DNA from: a virus
Reading direction: 5' to 3' (one strand)
Virus record (IMG/VR): IMGVR_UViG_3300050121_000301
Coordinates: 1-21,551 of that record
DNA: 21,551 nt
The translations under genes were made by a program, and so were the position numbers. A model generated the notes under the pieces. That model did not search any database. It was not told the origin of the DNA and saw only the letters and a list, made by a program, of their open reading frames with translations. How positions within the stretch are numbered: the first letter of the stretch is position 1; the number at the start of each line of letters is the position of its first letter. This document shows, in pieces, positions 5,812-10,359 of the stretch.

Positions 5812-6329
5812 AGGCGCTGAGTCTGTGGCAGCCGCACCCACTGGCAATCGCATTGGGATGGAAGCCGTGGGAGACGCGGGACTGGTCGACAAAGTATCGC
5901 GGACCATTGGCGATTCATGCTGCGCAGCGCTCGTGGACAGACTTCAGCCCGTGGGATAGCGAGGCGCGGCGGAGGCTACTGGCTTATGGGATGGCGCACG
6001 GGCTCGTCAGCTGGTCGTTTGGCGCGGTGATCTGCACGGTGGACCTGGTCGATTGCGTGCGTACCAGCGAGCTGCGCGGGCGCATCTCGGAAGATCACGA
6101 ATTCTGGGGTGATTTCAGCGATGGTAAAGAGGGCAAGGGGCGCTATGCGTTCAAGCTGGAGAACGTGCGCGTGTTGCCGAAGCCTCTGCCCTGGCGCGGT
6201 CTTCAGGGGTTCTTTGAAGTTGATCTGGGAGGCGAAGAACCGAAGCCTGCGCCGGCACCCCAGCTCGAAGTGCAGGGGTCTCTTTTTGGGACTTATATCG
6301 TTGACTCCCGTGGAGGAATGAATGGCTGA
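5808..6329 (+). CDS. ASCH domain protein
   Basis: 173 residues from the ATG overlapping the upstream TGA. The start MKALSLWQPHPLAIALGWKP, then WETRDW and YRGPLAIHAA (20-39), is the classic N-terminus of ASCH-fold (PUA-like) proteins. GRYAFKLENVRVL (111-123) and the GLQGFFEVDL strand (131-140) complete the fold. ASCH domains are thought to bind RNA or modified nucleosides; one family, YqfB, hydrolyses N4-acetylcytidine. Which activity applies here cannot be read from the sequence. The Pro-rich C-terminus (EEPKPAPAPQ) looks like a flexible tail. A tggagga site near its end serves the next gene, which starts eight bases before this stop. Confidence 0.85.
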   Translation: MKALSLWQPHPLAIALGWKPWETRDWSTKYRGPLAIHAAQRSWTDFSPWDSEARRRLLAYGMAHGLVSWSFGAVICTVDLVDCVRTSELRGRISEDHEFWGDFSDGKEGKGRYAFKLENVRVLPKPLPWRGLQGFFEVDLGGEEPKPAPAPQLEVQGSLFGTYIVDSRGGMNG

Positions 6330-6648
6330 AATCGTGCTGGATAAAAGGTCGGTTGCTATACGGCCTTTACGAATTCTTCCCAAGACAGATGAATTGATTC
6401 TGTACTGGGCGATCACGTTTCCGAAGAACCCTTATCAGGGTGTCGAGACGTACTTGCGGCGTCTTAGGGCGTTCGGTTTTAGCTCCTGTGTGGAGAATGC
6501 GGAGCCGTTAGGCGATCTTGGCTTGGACATACTCGACGAAGACGGTGACATTCTCCACACGTTTGATGTGACGCGGAGAGGATTTGAATATCTCAGGAAA
6601 AAGTTGAAATTCCGTGTGGACCGCGATGAAAGGGAGCCAAGTGTATAA
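6322..6648 (+). CDS. Hypothetical protein, 108 aa
   Basis: Starts at ATG 6322, preceded by a good tggagga site (6311-6317) inside the ASCH gene. The protein alternates strands and helices (LILYWAITF near 25-33; YLRRLRAFGF near 44-53) and has an acidic segment, LGLDILDEDGDILHTFDV. Such a pattern fits a small alpha/beta fold, but no family is recognised. DNA here is slightly more AT-rich than in flanking genes. Confidence 0.65.
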   Translation: MAEIVLDKRSVAIRPLRILPKTDELILYWAITFPKNPYQGVETYLRRLRAFGFSSCVENAEPLGDLGLDILDEDGDILHTFDVTRRGFEYLRKKLKFRVDRDEREPSV

Positions 6649-6727
6649 ATCCCAATGGATTGCCATCGCGGTCTGGGCCAAGAAACTGATCGAGGAGCGG
6701 CAAGGGAAAGTGACATGGGCAAACTGA
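6626..6727 (+). CDS. Possible 33-aa mini-protein overlapping the HNH start
   Basis: A short ORF from ATG 6626 begins MKGSQVYKSQWIAIAVWAKK and continues as an amphipathic basic helix (LIEERQGKVTW). It overlaps the end of the 108-aa gene and the first codons of the HNH gene, filling the 66-bp gap between them. The composition looks protein-like, but there is no clear ribosome-binding site. It may be a real microprotein or a chance frame. Confidence 0.35.
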   Translation: MKGSQVYKSQWIAIAVWAKKLIEERQGKVTWAN

Positions 6728-7422
6728 GACCGGAACAAAGCGCAAAGCGCATGAGCAGAAAACCGTGGACAGCGAAGGAACTGAAGATTGTGCGGCAGTT
6801 CTATGCCGAGATTCCGACGCGGGAGATCGCGGAGCTGCTCGGCCGGTCCTTGACAATGGTTTACCAAGCAGCCCACGGGATGGGATTGACGAAGAGTGCG
6901 GAATATCTCGCCGGCGCAGATGCCTGCAGGCTGCGCCGTGGCGACAATGTGGGCGCGGCGTTTCGATACAAGCCTGGTCACGCTCCGGCGAACAAGGGAC
7001 TGCGCAGGCCTGGCTGGTCTCCTGGGCGCATGCGTGAGACACAGTTCAAGCTCGGGCATATGCCGCATACATGGCTGCCGCTGTGGTCTGAGCGGGAGAG
7101 CAAAGACGGGTACCTGGAGATCAAGTTTCGCGAGCGGGAAGGCCGCTACGGAAATTGGGCGGGCGCGCACGTCCTGCTGTGGGAAGACAAGCACGGGCCG
7201 GTACCAGCGGGCCATGCCCTGGTCTTCAAGGATGGCAACAAGGCGCATGTCGCGCTCACGAATCTGGAGTTGATTTCACGCGCCGATCTGATGCGGCGCA
7301 ATACGATTCATAACCTGCCGCCGGAGCTCGTGAAGACGATCATACTGCTGGGCGCGGTGAAACGAAAGGTGAGGGAGAAGAGTGAAAAACGGGATCACGG
7401 ATCTGCGCAACCATCTGTTTGA
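6715..7422 (+). CDS. HNH endonuclease with Myb/SANT-like N-terminus
   Basis: I use ATG 6715, preceded by gggaaag; upstream codons of the same frame look unrelated. Residues ~16-60 (PWTAKELKIVRQFYAEIPTR, then a second helix) form a Myb/SANT-like DNA-binding domain. Repeated KPGHAPANKGLRRPG and TQFKLGHMPHTW segments (86-120) resemble motifs of phage HNH proteins. The catalytic region is AHVLLWEDKHG (150-161) plus GHALVFKDGN (166-175) and NLELISR (183-189), giving H152, H167 and N175/N183 as likely active-site residues. These enzymes are typically free-standing homing-type endonucleases. The 3' end overlaps the start of the next gene by 41 bases. Confidence 0.88.
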   Translation: MGKLRPEQSAKRMSRKPWTAKELKIVRQFYAEIPTREIAELLGRSLTMVYQAAHGMGLTKSAEYLAGADACRLRRGDNVGAAFRYKPGHAPANKGLRRPGWSPGRMRETQFKLGHMPHTWLPLWSERESKDGYLEIKFREREGRYGNWAGAHVLLWEDKHGPVPAGHALVFKDGNKAHVALTNLELISRADLMRRNTIHNLPPELVKTIILLGAVKRKVREKSEKRDHGSAQPSV

Positions 7423-7672: not shown

Positions 7673-7738
7673 ATGGGACAGGCAAAGGAAAGCAGACGCC
7701 GCGAACGGCAAGAAGCGGCACACGGGAGAGCACTGTGA
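7673..7738 (+). CDS. Possible 21-aa mini-ORF coupled to the replication gene
   Basis: A 22-codon frame starts at ATG 7673 and stops at a TGA overlapping the GTG start of the winged-helix gene. Its product (MGQAKESRRRERQEAAHG, then RAL) is very basic. A purine-rich stretch (agggaaaaag) sits upstream. It may act as a leader that couples translation of the GTG-started gene rather than making a functional peptide. Confidence 0.35.
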   Translation: MGQAKESRRRERQEAAHGRAL

Positions 7739-8730
7739 GCGCGAAAGCAAGCGGATACATGAAGGCGCTCGTCGAGTGCCCGAACGGGGAGCGAATCACG
7801 CCCAGGGAAAAGCTGGTCGGGATGGTTCTGGCCGATTCACACCAAGATAGGGCGAAGAGGTATACCTATCCGTCTGTAGATACCATCGCCGAGGACTCAC
7901 TGAGCGACCGGCGCACCTGCCAGAGGTACCTGGCGGCGCTCGAACGCAAGGGCGTGATTCTGCGCATGAGGCCGCCGAACCAGGGGCGCGGAGCGCAGAT
8001 TTTTTACTTCTTTTCGGCCCTTGACGAGATTCCAGAAGGGTGGCAGGACGCCGCCCTTTTGGGCGCTGGACTTTTTGCCCAAAAGGGCGGCGGAAGGGCG
8101 GCGGAAGGGCGGCGGAAGGGCGGCAATTTGCCTGCCCGCCCTATAGAACGCGCGCAGGAACGGGAACAAGAGCAACAGAAGCAACAAGAACAAGTACTAA
8201 CCCCCCTACCCCCTTCGCAAGCGAATGGGGAGTGCGAAATCGACAAGGAGCTCGAAGATGCGGACAAGACGAAAAGCAGCCCCACGAGTGTGGCCACCAA
8301 CTACGTCTCAATTGCCTCAGGTGTTACTTTGCAGGATAGAGTGGTATCGGGCGCACAAAGTAGCGATGGGAATACAGGATATCCGCAAGGCGCGATTCTC
8401 GTTGGCGGTGCGTCGGAAAATCAACGTCTTTGCGAAGCCGCGGTTGACCAGGTGATGAGTGGACTGGCGATCACCAAGCGAAGGATGCGGGCGAAGCTCA
8501 GGGCGGTGATTGCCCTGGAGGCCGACAAAGGCGCGTCGCCGCCGACAACTGCGCTGGCGATGATGGCGGCCTGGCGCAATCAATGCGAACGGCACGCAGA
8601 GGGGCAGCTCAGCCGCAAGTTCGGGATCGTGAATTTCTTCGAGCTTGGCATCTGGAAAGACGCGAACCGGTGGATGTGGGACACGGCTGAATGCAAACTG
8701 CAGGCCGGTGCGCGAGTGGGAAGCATGTAA
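7735..8730 (+). CDS. Winged-helix replication-type protein (HTH_36-like)
   Basis: 331 residues from GTG 7735; ATG at codon 9 is an alternative. Residues ~20-80 form a helix-turn-helix/winged domain (YPSVDTIAEDSLSDRRTCQR, then YLAALERKGVI) like HTH_36 and phage replication-O-type proteins, which bind origin DNA. Then come a low-complexity Gly/Arg linker (117-130) encoded by DNA repeats, a Gln/Glu-rich stretch (139-153), and a helical C-terminal region (~240-331, ITKRRMRAKLRAVIALEAD) that may contact a helicase or loader. Position before the DnaA-IV-like gene supports a replication role. No ATPase or primase motif is seen. Replication is inferred from the domain and neighbours. Confidence 0.75.
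   Translation: MSAKASGYMKALVECPNGERITPREKLVGMVLADSHQDRAKRYTYPSVDTIAEDSLSDRRTCQRYLAALERKGVILRMRPPNQGRGAQIFYFFSALDEIPEGWQDAALLGAGLFAQKGGGRAAEGRRKGGNLPARPIERAQEREQEQQKQQEQVLTPLPPSQANGECEIDKELEDADKTKSSPTSVATNYVSIASGVTLQDRVVSGAQSSDGNTGYPQGAILVGGASENQRLCEAAVDQVMSGLAITKRRMRAKLRAVIALEADKGASPPTTALAMMAAWRNQCERHAEGQLSRKFGIVNFFELGIWKDANRWMWDTAECKLQAGARVGSM
8051..8090 (+). repeat. Perfect 14-bp inverted repeat within the winged-helix gene
   Basis: ccgcccttttgggc (8051-8064) and gcccaaaagggcgg (8077-8090) are exact reverse complements separated by 12 bases. The RNA could form a stable hairpin inside the coding region, at the boundary between the DNA-binding domain and the linker. Confidence 0.85.
8085..8124 (+). 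repeat. 11-bp tandem repeat, 3.6 copies
   Basis: The unit gggcggcggaa is repeated exactly three times (8085-8095, 8096-8106, 8107-8117), followed by a partial copy. It overlaps the right arm of the inverted repeat. Because 11 is not divisible by three, successive units are read in different frames, giving the KGGGRAAEGRRKGG linker. Confidence 0.88.
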
Positions 8731-8731
8731 G

Positions 8732-8755
8732 TGTTTCACGTTCCACGTGACACGT
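8732..8755 (+). promoter_or_regulatory. parS-like / imperfect palindromic protein-binding site candidate
   Basis: The gap between the two replication genes contains tgtttcacg (8732-8740) directly followed by a palindrome centred on cacgtg (acgttccacgtgacacgt, 8738-8755, 14 of 18 positions symmetric). The 16-mer at 8739-8754 agrees with the canonical parS form TGTTCCACGTGAAACA at 13 of 16 positions, by hand count. Since the genome encodes a ParB-like protein, this may be its site; an operator for another regulator is equally possible. Confidence 0.45.
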
Positions 8756-8798
8756 TCGAGCAGGCAGGATAGCGGCTGCAAAAGCAAGGAGACGGAAA

Positions 8799-9626
8799 GT
8801 GAGTGCAATGGCGGGGTTGACGGGGGTGGAGTGCGTGGAATGCAGGGCGGCCGGGCATCGCTGCCAGGCGCAGATCTGGATTGAGAACGAGCCGCTGTGC
8901 ATGCGCTGCGCCGATCACGAGCGGTGCTGCTTTGATACGGCAAAGGATATGGGGACGCCGGATGGCGCGGACGAGGAAGTCGATCTGTGCGTTGTGCCAG
9001 CACCGGATCGGCCAGTCGAGCGTCTGCGCCATCGGGTCGTCGTGACGCCGCCGCGTTTTGAGTACGAGGAGCGGGCTATGATTCGCTGTGAACTCACGAA
9101 GTACAGCCTGGCAGACGTGGCGCGACGCCATTCGCTCGATGCGTGGATGATTGCTGATTTGCAACCCGATGAGGCTGCGCGCGAAACAAGCAGGCAGGAA
9201 GCACAGGCGAAGCTCGTGAGAGTTGAGGTCGAACGTCGCCAGAAGCTGGTTATCGACGGCGAGATGGTGATGATGGCTCCGGGCGTAACGATGGGCGCGG
9301 AGATGATCGAGTGCCACAAAAAGCCAGTGACAATTGCATTGGTACAGACGGCCGTGTGTGACTATTTTGCAATCGGACGCGACAGGTTGGAAAAGCATTT
9401 TTGCGGGCATAAGATGGCCAGGCGCAGACAGATCGCGATGTTTATCTCCTATCGCATTTGCGACAAAACTCTCACAGAGATCGGAATTGCATTCGGTGGC
9501 TTCCACCACACGACGGTGGCGCACGCGCTGCGCACAATCGAGAAAAACATTCCCCGGGATGCGGAGCTAAATAAATATGTGGAAACCATAGAAGCCGCGC
9601 TGGACGCGGGGAACGTAGCTGCTTGA
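8799..9626 (+). CDS. Cys-rich protein with a DnaA domain IV-like C-terminus
   Basis: 275 residues from GTG 8799, seven bases after an aaggag site. Residues 12-45 are Cys-rich (CVEC, then CMRCADHERCC), likely zinc-binding. Residues ~102-130 may be a second HTH. Residues ~180-250 match DnaA domain IV, the origin-box-binding domain: VQTAVCDYF, ARRRQIAMF, TLTEIGIAFGG and HHTTVAHAL follow the order and spacing of host DnaA. No Walker A/B AAA+ module is present. Several positions that contact the box in E. coli DnaA differ: GGRDHTTV reads GGFHHTTV, and the Arg-rich KRRSR stretch is replaced. It may be the phage origin-binding protein, a host DnaA competitor, or a transcription regulator. The domain assignment is strong; function is inferred. 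Confidence 0.85.
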   Translation: MSAMAGLTGVECVECRAAGHRCQAQIWIENEPLCMRCADHERCCFDTAKDMGTPDGADEEVDLCVVPAPDRPVERLRHRVVVTPPRFEYEERAMIRCELTKYSLADVARRHSLDAWMIADLQPDEAARETSRQEAQAKLVRVEVERRQKLVIDGEMVMMAPGVTMGAEMIECHKKPVTIALVQTAVCDYFAIGRDRLEKHFCGHKMARRRQIAMFISYRICDKTLTEIGIAFGGFHHTTVAHALRTIEKNIPRDAELNKYVETIEAALDAGNVAA

Positions 9627-9867
9627 CGGGAGTTTCCCGAGGTTTGCACAAAGATTCCGTGCGCGCGTTTCCGCAAAGTGGCCTATTGTATTTATGGAAC
9701 GGAATTCATCCCGGACCCGAGGACGGTAAGACCGTTCAGCACTGCGACAGTGGGCAGTTTCACGGGTAACTCGAACTATCTTCAAAACTCACTCGGTTCT
9801 TATCCCGCACCGGCCCTGCCGGTGACAGAGCTCAGTGTGTTCCTCCCAAGGCTGGCGCTCATGACTT
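9627..9867 (+). other. 241-bp gap between replication and lysis regions
   Basis: No convincing gene is seen here; a weak GTG-started frame crosses it but has no recognisable product. It contains a hairpin at 9808-9824 (caccgg / ccggtg, 5-base loop) without a T-run, a DnaA-box-like GTTTGCACA at 9642-9650 (8 of 9 to TTWTNCACA), and a TTATCC at 9800-9805. It is a plausible place for a promoter or origin elements, but no good -35/-10 pair was found. Confidence 0.4.
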
Positions 9868-10359
9868 ATGAGCATATCCAGAATGCAAAGGCGCACCTCC
9901 GATGGCGCGTTGAATCTTTATCCAGCCGATGATTCACGCGGCTGGCGTGTCATCCGTGTGGTTTCATTCTCCGACGGCCTCGAAAAGGTGGCCTCGGGAG
10001 ATTGGATGCTCGTGGATGACGTGAACGGCAACCCGTGGTATTTCCAGCTTAAAGCCAACTTCACAACTGACCAGGACCTTCCCAGCGGCGCCAGCTCAAG
10101 CTCGATTACGGAGAGCGAATGTAAGTTGAATGCCGGTTGTGGCGGAAAGTCCCGCACTATGGGCATGTCGGAGGATCGGCGTCTCTGCCGGCGCGACATT
10201 GTCTCTCACGCGCTTCCGCCTGAAGATGCAGTCGAGCGCGCCATCAACAAAGTCAAAATGTGGCCACACCCGGCATCGCGTATCGATGACGGCACGGGCA
10301 TTGCCGTGTACGGCGACCGGGCCGTGCGCGTTTATCCGAGACTTTATCCGAGACCATGA
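9868..10359 (+). CDS. Hypothetical protein, 163 aa
   Basis: An in-frame TGA lies one codon upstream, so ATG 9868 is the earliest possible start; ATG at codon 6 is an alternative, and neither has a strong ribosome-binding site. The middle (GWRVIRVVSFSDGLEKVASG, DWMLVDDVNGNPWYFQL) looks like a beta-rich domain. A C-terminal segment (KSRTMGMSEDRRLCRRD) resembles one I recall from unnamed phage proteins. The last residues, VYPRLYPRP, come from a 12-bp tandem duplication. Codon use looks coding. Function unknown. Confidence 0.62.
   Translation: MSISRMQRRTSDGALNLYPADDSRGWRVIRVVSFSDGLEKVASGDWMLVDDVNGNPWYFQLKANFTTDQDLPSGASSSSITESECKLNAGCGGKSRTMGMSEDRRLCRRDIVSHALPPEDAVERAINKVKMWPHPASRIDDGTGIAVYGDRAVRVYPRLYPRP
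10331..10354 (+). repeat. Perfect 12-bp tandem duplication
   Basis: tttatccgagac occurs twice back to back (10331-10342 and 10343-10354), just before the stop of the 163-aa gene. It adds four residues in frame (YPR L repeated as YPR P). Confidence 0.9.

Follow-up and report, generated by a model that had tools for sequence, protein, structure and literature searches.

We identified, in a viral DNA stretch of 21,551 bases (an IMG/VR virus record of a soil-type phage, here called the window), a gene whose 275-aa product ends in a phage-encoded DnaA domain IV lacking the AAA+ module. This domain is an optional C-terminal module on a larger conserved protein that begins with a Cys module, and among relatives it is either replaced or fast-evolving. 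The gene product may be a modular phage DNA-binding regulator that acts as the phage passes from replication to late expression, with a domain IV of altered specificity and a phage-specific target. This is the reading we favour, though tentatively.

The gene lies in the order ParB-like gene, O-like HTH_36 replication gene, the gene itself and a conserved ORF, followed by lysis-side genes, HNH, terminase, HK97-type portal, protease and capsid genes. The features discussed below are collected in Table 1.

Table 1. Positions of the gene, its domains and neighbouring elements in the window.
Feature	Position	Strand	Basis or remark
O-like/HTH_36 replication initiation gene, upstream neighbour, conserved next to the gene in relatives	7735-8730	+	
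11-bp tandem repeat AAGGGCGGCGG, 3.8 copies, within the O-like gene	8083-8124	+	repeat array
AAGGAG ribosome-binding site serving the GTG start	8784-8789	+	sequence
Gene for the Cys-module, HTH-like and domain-IV protein, 275 aa	8799-9626	+	GTG start; next in-frame ATG at 8808
N-terminal Cys module, CxxC...GH-x-CQAQ...C-x-RC-A-x2-E-x-CC	8832-8930	+	conservation in relatives; pLDDT 92-97, residues 11-50
Middle tri-helical HTH-like segment, residues 89-121	9063-9161	+	model helices 89-101, 104-110, 115-121
Conserved beta-hairpin motif GGExVxMAPxxxMGAEM, residues 153-169	9255-9305	+	alignment, model
DnaA domain IV, residues 177-270, R399C/P423T/D433H	9327-9608	+	Pfam, structure match, residue mapping
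Conserved structured RNA element, leader of the next ORF	9693-9790	+	covariation; no Rfam match
Next conserved ORF, no Pfam/PHROG match; late/lysis side begins here	9868-10359	+	exact start uncertain

A DnaA domain IV with altered contact residues

The only Pfam match of the protein was Bac_DnaA_C (residues 180-247, 58.4 bits, E 7.5e-16), well above the curated cut-off of 31.5 bits. Pfam gave no match to AAA+ (domain III), and the TIGR00362 (DnaA) match reached 71 bits against a cut-off of 344 and covered only positions 337-436 of that model. The best solved relative by sequence search was E. coli domain IV (1j1v). The AlphaFold2 model had a mean pLDDT of 89, rising to 96-98 across most of the C-terminal domain, and Foldseek placed its C-terminus on 1j1v with a TM(target) of 0.96 and an rmsd of 0.8 A; the AlphaFold input alignment contained domain-IV sequences, and the Pfam and solved-structure sequence matches support the fold independently. 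The first-pass annotation had described an ATPase-less protein with a DnaA domain IV and a Cys-rich N-terminus and had suggested a structure prediction against E. coli DnaA. That prediction returned the domain IV fold, the missing ATPase agrees with Pfam, and the Cys-rich N-terminus is real and conserved across relatives.

Among the positions mapped from E. coli DnaA, R399 reads C, P423 reads T, D433 reads H and K415 reads Y, while R407, Q408, L422, H434, T435, T436, V437 and H439 are retained; position 399 sits in a loop, where the alignment is less certain than in the helix. R399, P423 and D433 are among the base-contact residues of E. coli DnaA (PMC7561715, PMC5043019), and in the contact set R399, P423, D433, H434, T435 and H439 the first three are changed and the last three kept. 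The earlier reading of these three changes was correct. Its rendering of KRRSR as KHFCG was one residue out of register (positions 397-401 are HFCGH, counted from the ARxRQ anchor), which leaves R399-to-C unaffected. Compared with bacterial DnaA domain IV (PF08299; E. coli 1j1v, M. tuberculosis 3pvp), the last ~95 residues share the fold and keep R407, Q408, H434, T435, T436 and H439, but R399, P423, D433 and K415 are changed, domains I-III are missing and the Cys-rich N-terminus is unrelated.

A family of phage proteins with a Cys module

With only this protein as query, viral and genome collections yielded no close match, and searches of sequenced bacterial genomes and of the annotated phage collection gave no full-length relative. 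Annotated phages gave domain-IV matches only, many of them full-length cellular DnaA on mislabelled faecal scaffolds. Human-faecal tblastn matches labelled 'Bacteriophage sp.' were rejected as homologues, those that were read being full-length cellular DnaA. Loci L002-L005, L008 and L009, which carry that label, encode full-length cellular DnaA and are therefore probably bacterial chromosome fragments.

Relatives were reached by way of the terminase: terminase relatives led to L012, a full-length relative in the same slot, and profile scans then gave about 15 further IMG/VR viral relatives. A homolog search for the combined Cys-rich and DnaA-IV layout, as the first-pass annotation had proposed, returned a family, with domain IV in 9 distinct proteins. 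Residues C12, C15, H20, C22, C34, C37 and C43 are invariant (n=14 members), and most relatives also have the middle HTH-like segment and the GGExVxMAPxxxMGAEM block, the final common block ahead of a variable C-terminus. The window protein has both the invariant residues and the slot and is a member of this Cys-module family. The module probably binds metal (zinc). It had no significant counterpart in Pfam, PHROG, NCBIfam or PDB folds, and for the scaffold Pfam, PHROGs and PDB folds gave nothing significant beyond weak matches of the middle segment in relatives to HTH_23/HTH_11 and phrog_836.

Wherever the flanks could be read, the gene comes after the O-like gene, and in all but L175 and L184 the next conserved ORF follows it, a slot between the O-like initiator gene and the lysis/terminase genes. 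In L170, L180, L181 and L182 there is a 4-nt overlap with the end of the O-like gene, and some close phages (L011, L015 and L032) lack the gene. In the window, a 68-nt spacer ahead of the gene holds a perfect palindrome (TCACGT-TCC-ACGTGA, 8736-8750). The palindrome (TCACGTTCCACGTGA) was rejected as a conserved operator, being present in the window only and absent from relatives.

Domain IV is an optional tail

Beyond the GGE block, the C-terminus consists of domain IV in 9 distinct proteins, of a finger-like tail in 2 (L175, L176) and of no tail in 5 (L171, L185, L173, L174, L177). The carriers of domain IV are the window, L170, L180/L181, L182, L183 (=L186), L184 and L204, together with L012, in which the domain is degenerate and falls under the Pfam cut-off (12.8 bits); in L204 the Cys module is joined to domain IV through a different middle. 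The boundary is sharpest between L170 and L180, which are near-identical over most of the region: their Cys modules share 90% and their GGE blocks 80% protein identity, against 27% for the domain IVs, and DNA identity is back to 95-100% soon past the stop codon. The scaffold tree has too little support to distinguish a gain of domain IV from a loss.

The changed contacts recur across the family. All nine distinct domain IVs of the family retain R407, three retain R399, and P423 and D433 are each retained by one, with His at position 433 in seven. In a comparison set of 69 distinct phage domain-IV proteins from outside the family, D433 is present in 97% (67/69), P423 in 81%, R399 in 96% and R407 in 100%; that set was fetched by motif patterns spanning position 433 with D and H both allowed, which brings some selection bias at 433, and position 399 lay outside the patterns. 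In comparison with the domain IVs of cells and of the other phage proteins, those of the family have long branches (1.5-7 changes per site, median 0.64).

Such long branches, and the sub-threshold domain of L012, would be expected if domain IV were a relic, a weakly constrained fusion decaying to an inactive HTH. We consider this very unlikely, as the ORFs are long and intact, R407 is kept in every member, the D-to-H change is consistent and the window protein has a high-confidence predicted fold.

DnaA boxes, iterons and the origin

DnaA binds TTWTNCACA boxes. Canonical boxes were not enriched in the window, where 14 with at most one mismatch were counted against 16.8 expected. The least credible of the explanations we considered is a host DnaA mimic or competitor, which would occupy host DnaA boxes (TTATCCACA) and so stop or hijack host replication. 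The domain IV fold and the retained H434, T435, T436, R407 and Q408 are in keeping with it. However, R399, P423 and D433 are all changed here, D433 is changed in 8/9 family members, and the scaffold persists in relatives that have no domain IV; the box count also speaks against it, although that count covers the window and says nothing on host boxes.

The tandem repeats at 8083-8124 are probably the origin iterons of the O-like protein. Every O-like gene examined (the window, L170, L180-L182, L184, L186, L012, L171, L173, L175-L177, L011, L015 and L032) has an origin-type array mid-gene with an 11-bp or 21/22-bp period, and several iteron families occur in one clade. Iterons are found in phages without the gene (L011, L015, L032) and in those with scaffold-only members, and one iteron is shared by L170 and L180/L181, whose domain IVs differ. 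This disfavours origin binding by domain IV, and the O-like protein is the best assignment for the iterons. Immediately 3' of them the O-like gene has a hypervariable island (L170 1922-2098 compared with L180; L180 5428-5562 compared with L181), which differs even between the near-identical phages L180 and L181 with their matching domain IVs. The two divergent L170/L180 islands had suggested that domain IV is swapped together with an origin site in the O-like gene. This was rejected because L180 and L181 share a domain IV yet differ in the island, and because the iterons of L170 and L180 are the same.

A replication accessory or co-initiator would bind the phage origin beside or inside the O-like gene and help melting or host helicase recruitment. 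Adjacency to the O-like initiator gene, including the 4-nt overlap in four loci, the DnaA ancestry of the C-terminus and the closeness of origin-type iterons all suit it. We nevertheless think it unlikely: the iterons occur without the gene and beside scaffold-only members, one iteron goes with different domain IVs, the L180 and L181 islands differ despite matching domain IVs, and the protein has no AAA+ module for DNA melting, nor do the scaffold-only relatives have a domain IV. The first-pass annotation had proposed a phage regulatory or origin-binding protein with its own site rather than a host DnaA mimic. A phage DNA-binding protein that is not host DnaA and probably has its own site agrees with the residue counts (His at 433 in 7/9, P423 kept in 1/9, R407 always) and with the unenriched boxes. 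The origin-binding part is not supported, as the probable origin iterons sit in the O-like gene even where this gene is missing and the same iteron accompanies domain IVs only 27% identical. A putative regulator role fits better than origin binding.

The 9-mer GCCAGGCGC (9 copies against 0.6 expected) was rejected as a binding site and attributed to composition or codon usage, because L011, which lacks the gene, has 7 copies and because some 9-mer reached at least 9 copies in 5/60 order-4 Markov sequences. In L175 (20,163 b) the 9-mer CGGCGCGGT occurs 34 times, which suggests a large tandem array.

A structured RNA downstream of the gene

The gene is followed, ahead of the next ORF, by a conserved RNA element of three hairpins, with copies in L170 (3251-3347), L182 (8812-8909), L012 (4077-4185) and L177 (10561-10657). 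RNAalifold and an explicit pair count showed covariation, with 83% of cells paired and 25 double-sided changes, where shuffles gave 9.3 and slid versions no more than 8; in hairpin P2 such changes fall at 5/6 pairs. A covariance model from nine sequences found L177 (E 1.5e-13), L176 and L011, none of which was used in building it, and recovered the element in 15 loci. These include L011, which has the RNA without the Cys-module gene, and this ties the element mainly to the next ORF.

An antitermination-type late regulator, in which RNA polymerase would be modified at the late leader by the scaffold, possibly with this RNA, and domain IV would serve as a DNA anchor, would account for the slot between early and lysis genes and for the covarying RNA found behind the gene in each of the 14 family loci that retain the next ORF. 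The occurrence of the RNA in L011 and the absence of any sequence or fold match to known antiterminators count against it, and we rate it as decidedly unlikely.

A putative regulator of the late switch

In the modular regulator that we favour, the conserved scaffold would comprise the Cys module, the short HTH-like segment and the GGE/MGAEM hairpin, and domain IV would be an interchangeable DNA-reading tail on it, here and in some sister phages. The tail keeps the domain IV fold and the R407 phosphate contact while its base readers have changed, recurrently to HHTT for DHTT. Because the base-reading residues have changed, a phage-specific site is expected rather than the host DnaA box (TTATNCACA). 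The most likely site of action would be a phage promoter or leader at the switch from replication to late expression, since the gene has a fixed place, with the initiator gene before it and the structured leader of the lysis/terminase side after it. Metal binding, the new specificity, the transcriptional role and the target are what we infer from these data.

Several lines of evidence point to such a regulator. On one scaffold the module is present, absent or replaced, with the sharp L170/L180 boundary; the altered base contacts with R407 kept set the family apart from the 69 other phage domain-IV proteins; synteny is conserved and DnaA boxes are not enriched. In addition, relatives that have no tail or a finger-like one show a weak match to phrog_836, 'late transcriptional activator', in their middle segment (L177 E 1.9e-5, L176 0.0037, L173 0.037). 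Against it, the search for a target site found none, the phrog_836 match covers a short generic HTH only and was not seen in the window protein, and metal binding is read from the invariant Cys and His residues only. The scaffold is also without a significant PDB fold match, the gene is missing in L011, L015 and L032 and hence not essential to the layout, and the 4-nt overlap with the O-like gene suits a replication role equally well. A wider proposal, that these proteins form a new class of phage late regulators with a metal-binding Cys module and HTH scaffold, a swapped tail (DnaA-IV HHTT reader, zinc-finger-like or none) and a downstream RNA leader, is improbable on present evidence.

Comparison with known systems

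DnaA domain IV is commonly regarded as reading a single, fixed box. In this family it appears to be a detachable module in which the base readers have changed repeatedly while the fold and the R407 phosphate contact stay, and this natural variant set could help to work out the specificity code of domain IV. It suggests that phages reuse part of an initiator for apparent regulation.

A comparable arrangement has been described for TnpA-REP (HuH) proteins of subclass 2.1, which carry a C-terminal Bac_DnaA_C, HTH_23 or HTH_28 tail, so that domain IV belongs to a set of HTH tails that can be exchanged at the C-terminus of a different protein; the authors also suggest that it may read a new site (PMC6006769). 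Unlike the present family, TnpA-REP has a HuH transposase-type scaffold and no Cys module, and no scaffold relation was seen. The phrog_836 late transcriptional activators resemble the short HTH of some relatives, but the match spans only ~30-50 residues and phrog_836 has neither Cys module nor domain IV.

ATPase-less DnaA-IV phage proteins are common and already known. Those annotated as 'Chromosomal replication initiator, DnaA C-terminal' (BFVD; phrog_16091, phrog_30669; PRK06030) likewise have a stand-alone domain IV without AAA+, but the surveyed phage domain-IV proteins mostly keep R399 (96%) and D433 (97%), and none of the loci searched for the Cys module carries it. As far as the libraries used here show, what appears to be new is the scaffold with its Cys module, the recurrence of the HHTT reader and the presence or absence of the tail in one phage locus. 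In L182, a second protein (5843-6847), encoded upstream of the O-like gene, has a divergent copy of the Cys module (E 3.5e-9).
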